Positions 25,006 to 27,560 of a stretch of DNA of 34,784 nt are shown here, piece after piece. Below the pieces are notes generated by a model. The model had not been told where the DNA came from, did not search any database, and saw only the letters and a program-made list of their open reading frames with translations. The position numbers and the translations under genes are program-made. The stretch is from the NCBI RefSeq assembly GCF_029168335.1, contig NZ_JARGYC010000048.1:1-34784 (forward strand), given 5' to 3'. The DNA is from Psychromarinibacter sediminicola (GTDB lineage: Bacteria; Pseudomonadota; Alphaproteobacteria; Rhodobacterales; Rhodobacteraceae). Each line of letters opens with the position of its first letter. Within the stretch, counting starts at the first letter, position 1.

Positions 25006-26526
25006 TCAGCGCCCCTTGAACAGCGTCCCGAACAGCCCGCGCACCAGCCGCCGGCCGGTGGTGCCGCGCAGCTCGGTCTTCAGCGCCTCGGTCAGCGCCC
25101 CGCCGATGCTGTCGTCGGAACCGTAGCGCCGCCCGCCGCCGCCGGCCCGCCCCGGCGCATAGCGCCGGCCGGCGGTGAATTCGCGCGTCTCGGCCTCCGG
25201 CGCGTCCTCGGCCGCGCGCGCCGCCGTTCCGGCGCGCGCCTTCAGCCGCTCGTAGGCGCTGTCGCGGTCGGTCACGGCATCGTACTTGCCGGCCACGGGC
25301 GAGGCGGCGACGACCGCGCGGCGCTCGGCCTCGGTGATCGCGCCCAGCCGCGACGACGGCGGCCGGATCAGGGTGCGCTCCACGATGCCGGGCGCGCCCT
25401 TGGCCTCCAGCATCGAGGTCACCGCTTCCCCGACCCCCACATCCCGGATCGCCTCGGCGGTGTCGAAGCGCGGGTTCGGGCGGTAGGTGTCGGCGGCCCG
25501 CGCCAGCGCCTTCTGATCGCGGGCGGTGAAGGCGCGCAGCGCGTGCTGGATACGGTTGCCCAGCTGGCTCAGCACGTCCGGCGGCACGTCGTCGGGGTTT
25601 TGCGTGCAGAAATAGACGCCGACGCCCTTGGAGCGGATCAGACGGGCCACCTGTTCTACCTTGTCGATCAGCGCCTTGGGCGCGTCGTCGAACAGCAGAT
25701 GCGCCTCGTCGAAGAAGAAGACGAGCTTCGGTTTCTCCGGATCGCCCACCTCGGGCAGATCCTCGAACAGCTCCGACAGAAGCCACAGCAGGAAAGTGGC
25801 ATAGAGCTGCGGCGCCGCCATCAGCCGGTCGGCGGCGAGGATCGAGACGCGGCCGCGGCCGTCGGGGTCCACCTGCATCAGGTCGTCCAGATCCAGCGCC
25901 GGCTCGCCGAACAGCCGCGCGCCGCCCTGGTTCTCCAGCACCAGGAGCTTGCGCTGGATCGCGCCGATGGAGGCCGCCGAGATATGGCCGTAGCGGAGCG
26001 AGAGGTCGGGCGCGTTCTCGCCCACCCAGACCAGCAGCGCGCGCAGATCCTTGAGGTCCAGGAGCGGCAGCCCCTCCTCGTCGGACAGGCGGAAAGCGAT
26101 GTTCAGCACGCCCTCCTGCGCCTCCGACAGATCGAGCATTCGCGCCAGCAGGAGCGGGCCCATCTCGGCCACCGTGGTGCGCACCGGGTGGCCCTTCTCG
26201 CCGAAGAGATCCCAGAAGGTGACCGGAAAGGCGGCATAGGCGTATTCGTCGAAGCCGATGGTGCCGGCGCGTTTCCGGAAGGCGTCGTGGAGCTTGAAAT
26301 CGGCGGAGCCGGACACGGCCAGCCCGGCCAGGTCGCCCTTCACGTCCGACAGGAAGACGGGCACGCCCGCGGCGGCGAAGCCCTCGGCGAGGATCTGCAC
26401 CGTCACCGTCTTGCCGGTGCCGGTGGCGCCCGCGATCAGCCCGTGGCGATTGGCATAGTCGAGCCGCAGGCCCTGTTTCTCGCCATACTCCGGCCCGCCG
26501 CCGCCCAGGAACACCCGATTGTCCAT
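25006..26526 (-). CDS. HerA-like ATPase (DUF853, YjgR type)
   Basis: P-loop ATPase of 506 residues. Walker A is GATGTGKT (33-40) and Walker B LVFFFDEAHLL with Asp273-Glu274; CTQNPDDVP and LGNRIQHALRAFT are the later motifs of the HerA/FtsK-like DUF853 group. The C-terminal part (about 440-490) is Ala/Gly/Arg-rich. HerA proteins translocate DNA with NurA in archaea, but the bacterial YjgR branch is uncharacterised and no nuclease gene adjoins. The start MDNRVFLGGGGPEYG is preferred to an upstream Met that lies in the promoter region. It is divergent from the small-RNA region. Confidence 0.88.
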   Translation of the reverse strand: MDNRVFLGGGGPEYGEKQGLRLDYANRHGLIAGATGTGKTVTVQILAEGFAAAGVPVFLSDVKGDLAGLAVSGSADFKLHDAFRKRAGTIGFDEYAYAAFPVTFWDLFGEKGHPVRTTVAEMGPLLLARMLDLSEAQEGVLNIAFRLSDEEGLPLLDLKDLRALLVWVGENAPDLSLRYGHISAASIGAIQRKLLVLENQGGARLFGEPALDLDDLMQVDPDGRGRVSILAADRLMAAPQLYATFLLWLLSELFEDLPEVGDPEKPKLVFFFDEAHLLFDDAPKALIDKVEQVARLIRSKGVGVYFCTQNPDDVPPDVLSQLGNRIQHALRAFTARDQKALARAADTYRPNPRFDTAEAIRDVGVGEAVTSMLEAKGAPGIVERTLIRPPSSRLGAITEAERRAVVAASPVAGKYDAVTDRDSAYERLKARAGTAARAAEDAPEAETREFTAGRRYAPGRAGGGGRRYGSDDSIGGALTEALKTELRGTTGRRLVRGLFGTLFKGR

Positions 26527-26579
26527 CGCTCCGCCTCTCCGCCGCACGGCGCAAAAATACATCGTTAACACTTAAGTGC

Positions 26580-26670
26580 CATACAGGTTCGCGTCCGGCG
26601 CGCATTCGCGTGCGTCGGGCAGACTTCCTCCCTGTCAGACTGGCCGCGCCTTCGGGCGCGGCATTTTTTT
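26580..26670 (+). ncRNA. Candidate small RNA 1 (3' end defined, 5' end uncertain)
   Basis: A strong plus-strand terminator needs a transcript, yet the gene on its left runs the other way, so an unannotated RNA must end here unless the terminator is a remnant. The segment before the terminator has CTTCCTCCCTG (26624-26634), which resembles an anti-Shine-Dalgarno loop. No convincing promoter was found upstream, so the start is a guess. Confidence 0.4.
26643..26670 (+). terminator. Intrinsic terminator 1
   Basis: GCCGCGCC (26643-26650), TTCG tetraloop, GGCGCGGC (26655-26662), one A, then seven T. It works only on the plus strand. Textbook geometry. Confidence 0.88.
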
Positions 26671-26712
26671 GGTGTGGTTAAGATGCAACTATGAAATGTG
26701 AAAACTTGCCTG

Positions 26713-26741
26713 TTGACGGTTGCGACCAAAGGCCGTAGCTT
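26713..26741 (+). promoter_or_regulatory. Sigma70-type promoter of candidate small RNA 2
   Basis: TTGACG (26713-26718), 17-nt spacer, TAGCTT (26736-26741). The -35 is nearly consensus and the -10 is acceptable for this group. Predicted transcription start is about 26748. Confidence 0.65.
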
Positions 26742-26747
26742 TCGCCT

Positions 26748-26818
26748 CACAAGACAAGTCGGCCAGTCCGGCAGGGAGAGAATCATCAAGGAAAAAGGGC
26801 CCGTTAGGGCCCTTTTTT
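26748..26818 (+). ncRNA. Candidate small RNA 2, about 70 nt
   Basis: The interval from the predicted start of the 26713-26741 promoter to the end of the terminator at 26818 is about 71 nt and has no coding capacity. It carries GGCAGGGAGAG (26770-26780). Its segment 26760-26778 can pair with 26628-26646 of candidate RNA 1 (17 Watson-Crick pairs, one G-U, one mismatch). The alternative is a terminated leader of the ialB-type gene, 119 nt downstream. Confidence 0.5.
26792..26818. terminator. Intrinsic terminator 2
   Basis: GGGCCC, GTTA loop, GGGCCC, flanked by five A on the left and six T on the right, so it can act on both strands. Very strong form. Confidence 0.88.
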
Positions 26819-26936
26819 CATGTACGGGCCGCGGCGCCCGCCCGCCGCCGAGGGGTGTTCAATTCGGGGACTGACACGGATCGGGGCGCATGATACACCC
26901 TCGCCGACCGTTTGACCCCGGAGGGATGGAAGAAAG

Positions 26937-27560
26937 ATGAAAGACCTGATTCGCACGTTGCCGCTCGCCCTGGCTGTCGCGCTTGCCGGGCCCGCCATCG
27001 CGCAGGAGACGCCCCTGGACGAAGAGGCGCCGAACCCGATGGAGCTGAACATGGGCGTGGATTCGCCCGAGGAGGACGGCCCCGGCTCGGTCTACACCAA
27101 GAGCACGCACGAGGATTGGCAGCTGCGCTGCATCCGCGGGCCGGAGGGCAACGATCCCTGCCAGCTCTACCAGCTTCTGAACGACGCCAACGGCAACCCG
27201 GTGGCCGAGATCAACGTGTTCCCGATCACCGACGACAGCACGGACGCCGCCGCCGGCGCCACCGTCGTCACGCCGCTGGAGACGCTGTTGACGGCGCAGC
27301 TGGGCTTCAAGGTCGATGACGGGGGCGTCAAGCGCTATCCCTTCGCCTGGTGCTCGCAGATCGGCTGCTTCGCCCGGCTCGGCTTTACCGACGAGGACGT
27401 GAACACGATGAAGCTGGGCGCCGAGGCGAGCATCCTGATCCGCCCGGTCGCGGCGCCGGACCAGGTGGTCACGCTCGGCGTGTCGCTGACCGGCTTCACC
27501 GCGGCCTACGAGGCGGCCATCGAGGCGAACGCGGCACTGCAATCCGCGCCGGCCGAGTAA
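26937..27560 (+). CDS. IalB-family (invasion associated locus B) periplasmic protein
   Basis: Exported protein of 207 residues. A signal peptide ends at AIA (cleavage after residue 22). The mature domain shows the IalB pattern: WQLRCIRGPEGNDPCQLYQLL with a Cys pair, then PFAWCSQIGCFARLGFTDED with another Cys pair, probably disulfides. The family name comes from Bartonella, but most members are in free-living alphaproteobacteria and their function is not known. The start follows GGA at a good distance. It is monocistronic, ending at a hairpin shared with the converging ketoacyl synthase gene. Confidence 0.9.
   Translation: MKDLIRTLPLALAVALAGPAIAQETPLDEEAPNPMELNMGVDSPEEDGPGSVYTKSTHEDWQLRCIRGPEGNDPCQLYQLLNDANGNPVAEINVFPITDDSTDAAAGATVVTPLETLLTAQLGFKVDDGGVKRYPFAWCSQIGCFARLGFTDEDVNTMKLGAEASILIRPVAAPDQVVTLGVSLTGFTAAYEAAIEANAALQSAPAE

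Follow-up and report, generated by a model that had tools for sequence, protein, structure and literature searches.

A conserved small RNA upstream of ialB in Rhodobacteraceae, predicted to act as a decoy for SorX/SorY-type sRNAs

The window, a stretch of 34,784 nucleotides of Psychromarinibacter sediminicola DNA, contains a 410-nt gap between a HerA-like gene and an ialB-like gene, and this gap houses two compact small-RNA-like units on the plus strand, RNA1 and RNA2. RNA2 is predicted to be a stand-alone, trans-acting decoy (sponge) for the family formed by RNA1, SorX and SorY, a reading which we consider probable. In R. sphaeroides, SorX and SorY have been studied for their part in regulating the photo-oxidative stress response; takP is a reported SorY target, and a spermidine transporter mRNA is targeted by SorX. 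RNA1 is proposed, from its core and architecture, to be one more anti-Shine-Dalgarno sRNA, close to SorX and SorY and resembling the alpha-R8 RNAs. The conserved gene anatomy, the seeds, their complementarity to RNA2 and the persistence of RNA2 without RNA1 can be read directly from the sequences compared; the transcription of RNA2, its Hfq-assisted pairing in cells, the direction of its effect and its physiological trigger are what we infer.

According to the mechanism proposed, the 21-nt core of RNA2 would mimic the Shine-Dalgarno-like target of anti-Shine-Dalgarno sRNAs and would pair with their shared seed, CUCCCUGU(U/C)(G/A)GACU-GGCC. RNA2 would sequester, and probably destabilise, the neighbouring RNA1 as well as SorX- and SorY-type sRNAs encoded elsewhere, and the mRNA targets of all these sRNAs would be relieved. 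RNA2 is best read as such a target mimic because AGGGAG and its flanks resemble the ribosome-binding-site target of those sRNAs.

Layout and conservation of the two units

The features of the region are collected in Table 1. In RNA1 the 5' hairpin is followed by an open stretch rich in pyrimidines, ACUUCCUCCCUGUCAGACU (in shorter form CUUCCUCCCUGUCAGACU), and then by a terminator; in RNA2 the order is hairpin GUCGG-CCAGU-CCGGC, AGGGAG, a linker and the second terminator.

Table 1. Features of the intergenic region 26527-26936 and of its neighbours (window positions).
Feature	Coordinates	Strand	Basis and remarks
HerA-like helicase gene	25006..26526	-	PF05872 HerA_C (Pfam); divergent left neighbour
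Conserved block ATACA-N3-TTAAC...TGCCA	26557..26585		RNA1 and the divergent HerA-like gene may have overlapping promoter elements here
RNA1, SorX/SorY-like sRNA	~26592..26670	+	start inferred; core and terminator conserved
RNA1 5' hairpin	26593..26620	+	fold
RNA1 core CTTCCTCCCTGTCAGACTGGCCG, anti-Shine-Dalgarno-like seed	26624..26646	+	conservation over 151 loci
RNA1 terminator	26643..26670	+	stem 26643-26662, T-run to 26670; pattern scan and fold
RNA2 promoter TTGACG-N17-TAGCTT	26713..26741	+	TTGACG 26713-26718, TAGCTT 26736-26741; conserved in 151/151 loci
RNA2, predicted sponge sRNA	~26748..26818	+	start inferred from promoter; covariance model R2
RNA2 core GTCGGCCAGTCCGGCAGGGAG, 21 nt	26758..26778	+	AGGGAG preceded by hairpin GTCGG/CCGGC; complementarity to the seeds of RNA1, SorX and SorY
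RNA2 terminator	~26790..26819	+	fold; T-run 26813-26818
Probable own promoter of ialB, CTGACA-N17-TACACC	26871..26899	+	TG before -10; conserved pattern
ialB-like gene	26937..27560	+	PF06776 IalB (Pfam); right neighbour

The original prediction had described two plus-strand terminators 148 nt apart, a left neighbour running in the opposite direction, a sequence TTGACG-17 nt-TAGCTT ahead of the second terminator that would give an RNA of about 71 nt, and inverted copies at 26628-26646 and 26760-26778. This description holds: both terminators are present and the ends of their T-runs repeat at the 148-nt spacing, the left neighbour is a HerA_C gene (PF05872) on the minus strand, promoter and RNA lie at the coordinates claimed, and the two copies pair over 19 nt with 17 Watson-Crick pairs, one G-U pair and one A-C mismatch. 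The pattern scan for terminators listed only the first one and is no proof by itself, since about 1.1 such sites are expected per shuffle of the 1601 bases scanned; the fold energies stand out from those of shuffles, with z -4.32 for 26748-26819 and z -3.53 for 26580-26672. A sigma-70 scan listed no site at the RNA2 promoter, because its -10 is off consensus. RNA1 has no standard promoter, which leaves its 5' end less well defined than the 5' end of RNA2.

A search of related genomes, suggested together with the original prediction, found promoter, terminators and pairing segments conserved across Rhodobacteraceae. When the region was compared by BLAST with 101 genomes, it was mostly the two cores that recurred across the family (91/101 genomes at E<=1, chance matches included). 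With covariance models built from 27 RNA1 and 28 RNA2 sequences, the 394 Rhodobacteraceae genomes searched for RNA2 gave a match in 384 cases at E<=0.01 and in about 343 at E<=1e-6. The distinct loci examined numbered 171, chiefly the best-scoring ones and not a random sample. One of them, L199, a match with four errors, was rejected as an RNA2 locus, since the pattern had hit a SorX-like RNA on its opposite strand; this leaves 170. The RNA2 pattern did not find L189 (in genome G005). The neighbour counts still use 171 loci with L199 included, and refer to flanks of about 800-1500 nt, some of which end at contig ends: the HerA-like gene lies upstream of RNA2 in 150/171 and ialB downstream in 166/171. 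RNA1 was recognised by pattern in 151 of the 170 RNA2 loci and by eye in two more (L198 and L213).

In all 151 loci having both units the promoter hexamers of RNA2 are present, without substitution in 137, with one in 11 and with two in three, and the spacing is 17 nt in 149. The alignment of RNA2 has 101 rows (100 loci and one weak opposite-strand match in L138) and is fitted to the model, which favours structure; the hairpin is paired in 100% of its cells and contains one covarying pair. For the terminator the figure is 99%, and at each of the 8 pairs counted there both sides have changed. The core columns of the alignment are 95-100% identical except for three, the loop base at 78%, one at 82% and an A/G position at 50%. 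Identity falls to 56% immediately after GGGAG, the point at which RNA2 ceases to be complementary to the sRNA seed, and declines more gently on the 5' side, where the positions leading up to the core have 92% and 97%. The hairpin of RNA2 itself explains part of this invariance, with no partner needed. RNA2 possesses, then, a promoter and a terminator of its own, both conserved, as is expected of a sponge.

A small open reading frame behind the GGGAG of RNA2 was considered and rejected: in 112/171 loci there is no start codon 4-16 nt downstream, and 52 have a frame of at least 20 codons. A conserved peptide is thus argued against, the start being missing in most loci.

As for the block upstream of RNA1, ATACA-N-TTAACC occurs within two substitutions in 131/151 loci. 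Of the 138 loci with both neighbours, ATACA is found in 103, TTAACC itself in 99 and an element resembling it in 125. The corresponding counts are 1, 6 and 13 for the 15 loci with RNA1 but without the HerA-like gene, and 8, 3 and 6 for the 13 with the helicase gene but without RNA1, where the stretch searched is twice as long. On a loose reading of these small numbers, ATACA may belong to the helicase promoter and TTAAC to RNA1.

RNA1 and its relatives

Within the RNA1 core, TTCCTCCCTGTCAGACTGGCCG is identical in 74 of the 151 loci, the rest being variants within six edits. RNA1 shares architecture and seed with SorX and SorY of R. sphaeroides, but scores under both Rfam cut-offs (28.5 bits against 46.6 for SorX, RF02784, and 24.6 against 111 for SorY, RF02651), as it does for alpha-R8, or MmgR/suhB (RF00519; 22.2 bits against 41). 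Curated Rfam membership was therefore set aside for RNA1 and RNA2 alike, no family having reached its gathering threshold in the window. The available text of PMC12559287 defines alpha-R8 RNAs by a single-stranded 10-mer, UUUCCUCCCU, flanked by a hairpin and a terminator; RNA1 carries CUUCCUCCCU, which agrees with it at 9/10 positions, between its own hairpin and terminator. The highest RF00519 score of a module RNA1 among the matches listed for 14 genomes was 40.8 bits (G045), the cut-off being 41. Two of these genomes have an alpha-R8/MmgR RNA above the Rfam cut-off (L418 in G008, 61.7 bits, and L419 in G005, 60.4 bits), and the 12 other genomes tested have none.

When R. sphaeroides was searched with the RNA1 model, the local RNA1 (36.6 bits), SorX (33.9) and SorY (32.2) ranked first, with the next match, to a terminator only, close behind at 31.5 bits. 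The genome in question (G055) is taken to be R. sphaeroides 2.4.1, since its SorY and SorX matches start at 1,632,645 and 2,598,225, in agreement with the 5' ends of 1,632,642 and 2,598,224 given for that strain in the available part of PMC6238624. Its module (L213) lies, by Pfam, between a catalase gene on the left and ialB on the right, and its RNA1 seed has diverged to CUCCCUGAACUGGACUGGCC. It occupies the minus strand of chromosome 1, with RNA2 at about 1,426,523-1,426,606 and RNA1 at about 1,426,674-1,426,756. The catalase gene may be katE, RSP_2779 (PMC3413700).

Two RNAs of the P. sediminicola genome itself exceed the SorX cut-off: an ortholog of SorX at 87.8 bits and another SorX-like RNA at 55.7. 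Five matches of this genome to the RNA1 model were viewed closely, on contigs C221, C111, C188, C77 and C201, the last one lacking the seed; weaker matches are mostly partial, to the terminator. Another SorX-like candidate (L228, C111:65101-65172, minus strand) has the seed CUCCCUGACUGGACAGGCC, scores below the Rfam cut-offs and is complementary to RNA2.

In 35 of the 151 loci (among them L007, L008, L011, L020 and L022) the motif (A/T)UG(U/C)CCUC occurs in the 60 nt before the RNA1 core; the window is without it. It is possibly a second anti-Shine-Dalgarno seed, situated in the 5' hairpin of RNA1.

Pairing of RNA2 and the competing readings

The complementarity between the two units exceeds what shuffled sequences provide. 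When the 410-nt region was dinucleotide-shuffled 300 times, the best result, obtained once, was 16/19 Watson-Crick pairs, below the 17 observed. The RNA1/RNA2 duplex has -41.1 kcal/mol against a mean of -25.1 (sd 3.5) for 1000 shuffles of the 5' part of RNA2, 1/1000 being as low. Indels are absent from 111 of the 151 loci, and there 18 of the 19 positions pair with RNA1 in 104-111/111, so that unpaired exceptions amount to at most 7/111 per position, the A-C mismatch apart; the mismatch itself is kept in 92/111. Variation at the pairing positions is mainly of A/G opposite U or of C/U opposite G. Clear double changes are those of L012 (UUGCC/GGCAA) and L170 (GGGCC/GGCCC), compensatory change being scarce because both cores are almost frozen. 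True RNA1/RNA2 partners pair at -36.82 kcal/mol and permuted ones at -36.60 (sd 0.05; 0/300), a small advantage in a comparison uncorrected for shared ancestry.

RNA2 also matches sRNAs encoded in trans. The SorX-family seed CUCCCUGUUGGAC pairs with it free of the A-C mismatch of RNA1; at the position of the mismatching A found in most RNA1s, SorX and SorY carry a G, and the invariant C of RNA2 is therefore explained by SorX and SorY, and by the hairpin of RNA2, but not by RNA1. In R. sphaeroides, RNA2 is complementary to the local RNA1, to SorX and to SorY. Four partners of the SorX/SorY type (R. sphaeroides SorX and SorY and two SorX-type RNAs of the P. sediminicola genome) pair with RNA2 without the mismatch, three of them, namely R. 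sphaeroides SorX, SorY and the SorX-like RNA on C188, at the price of a 1-2 nt bulge. With internal structure taken into account, the dimer gain is -17.1 to -22.1 kcal/mol in five pairs, and 0/100 shuffles were as low for each pair. Within the P. sediminicola genome, RNA1 gains more (-22.1 kcal/mol) than the SorX-type RNAs (-19.8 and -18.1), so dimer gains do not put SorX above RNA1. The extended complementarity of RNA2, as a separate RNA, to the seeds of sRNAs is a further feature of a sponge.

Moreover, RNA2 outlasts its neighbour. Of the 170 RNA2 loci, 15 have no RNA1 and two a decayed one, as judged within 600 nt upstream by pattern and 330 nt by eye; all 17 retain the promoter and core of RNA2. 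All 17 of these genomes have SorX-family matches elsewhere, above the Rfam cut-off in 15. Of the 49 SorX-like loci listed in these genomes 30 were examined; all 30 contain CUCCCUGUUGGA, and their core-limited duplexes with the local RNA2 range from -33.4 to -43.2 kcal/mol. The original prediction had named as a point against itself that close relatives might retain the flanking genes yet lack the pairing segments; this is seen for RNA1, in a minority of loci, and is not seen for RNA2. Strong RNA2 matches (E<=1e-6) are missing in 11 of 13 genomes without a SorY-family match and in 14 of 185 with one (Fisher 8.7e-10), a contrast which is uncorrected for phylogeny, in which the SorY tally can include RNA1, and in which G005 counts as lacking RNA2 although BLAST shows the core there.

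Two interpretations had been offered initially, an RNA with its own antagonist or a duplicated and inverted regulatory site. The second finds no support, as each copy lies in its own conserved transcription unit and the flanks differ. Of the first, the existence of two units resembling sRNAs, with one capable of pairing with its neighbour, is strongly supported by family-wide conservation; an antagonist of RNA1 alone, forming a local sRNA/anti-sRNA pair, is unlikely. Such a pair would account for the adjacency of the two units on one strand, for the recognition of RNA1 by pattern in 151/170 RNA2 loci and for RNA1 giving the largest dimer gain among the three partners in the P. sediminicola genome, but not for the 17/170 loci where RNA2 promoter and core persist without intact RNA1, nor for the lack of the A-C mismatch in SorX/SorY-type seeds. 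Since it outlasts RNA1 and matches trans-encoded SorX/SorY-type RNAs, RNA2 looks like an antagonist of the whole sRNA family.

The position of ialB downstream of RNA2 in 166/171 loci could also suggest a 5' leader of ialB, an attenuator whose terminator governs read-through and to which RNA1 or SorX-type sRNAs bind as a switch; in R. sphaeroides a 5'-UTR-derived sRNA with a co-transcript, UdsE/RSs2778, is described in the available text of PMC8625941, and it may or may not be the module RNA. This possibility appears very remote, considering that the RNA2 terminator covaries and that [CT]TGAC-N14-16-TGNTA is found between RNA2 and ialB in 156/170 loci against 1/170 shuffled stretches; with this separate promoter-like site, RNA2 and ialB look like separate units. 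We regard as improbable, too, that RNA2 is an ordinary mRNA-regulating sRNA whose match to other sRNAs stems from the common alphabet of ribosome-binding sites. AGGGAG is indeed a generic Shine-Dalgarno sequence, and ACAGGGAG-N3-9-ATG occurs 40 times in the P. sediminicola genome against five times for a reversed control, but the match does not stop at the Shine-Dalgarno part: it takes in CCAGUCCGAC and spans the sRNA seed and the foot of the sRNA terminator.

The decoy proposed here has counterparts among known sRNAs. In Caulobacter crescentus, CrfA sponges SisA-D, of the alpha-R8 family, according to RIL-seq, structure probing and compensatory base exchange (available text of PMC12559287); like RNA2, it is one sRNA of an alphaproteobacterium complementary to the anti-Shine-Dalgarno seed shared by several dispersed siblings. 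By that account, the part of CrfA that binds the 10-mer UUUCCUCCCU is its second stem-loop, rich in G and A. RNA2 would use its 5' hairpin together with AGGGAG, in a duplex of about 19 nt, and usually adjoins one of its predicted targets; the two RNAs are likened by description and not by sequence. The same kind of likeness, by description and from other bacteria, holds for QrrX of Vibrio, one sponge for the sibling Qrr sRNAs (PMC12559287; see also PMC9732341). StsR of R. sphaeroides is likewise an sRNA that targets another sRNA, binding UpsM and promoting its decay in the account available from PMC8307010, and with UpsM as its described partner it was dropped as a candidate for RNA2 itself. 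The open-access papers searched yielded no report of a SorX or SorY sponge, and one review (PMC13414033) mentions neither SorX nor SorY. RNA sponges are already known as a kind; what appears new is RNA2 itself, its breadth and its linkage to one target.

If the decoy reading is true, it adds to SorX and SorY a conserved layer of control that is absent from the papers found, it affects how sorX and sorY mutants are to be read, and it suggests that sponging of anti-Shine-Dalgarno sRNA families recurs as a design in Alphaproteobacteria; the idea is directly testable in a laboratory strain. More tentatively, and at somewhat less than even odds in our estimation, one master decoy would set the free level of the whole anti-Shine-Dalgarno sRNA family (RNA1, SorX, SorY and relatives) in most Rhodobacteraceae genera, encoded beside one target, outliving it and independent of Caulobacter CrfA, with two orders converging on the same control point.

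Occurrence in other families and further records

Among 142 genomes of the class, six gave RNA2 matches at E<=1e-5. Two of the six belong to the family; in the remaining four the core is missing and the model matched the terminator. At 1466-1550 of L029, in a genome of another family of the class (G092), a terminator follows an RNA1-like core, CCUCCCUGUCAGACUUCAGCC, with no RNA2 beside it by pattern.

In named records and viral contigs at least 119 module-like stretches were found, one of them in viral contigs. Among the 119 matches listed, strict patterns detect both promoter and terminator in 103, of which 88 have RNA1 and 15 do not; two of these 15 are cut by a contig end and 13 lack CTCCCTG within 450 nt. 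The remaining 16 were inspected by eye: 13 resemble RNA2 loci and three (L323, L347 and L397) look like chance. A phage origin of the module was discarded: the contig of the single match among viral contigs also carries GapA-like and IalB-like genes and is regarded as bacterial.
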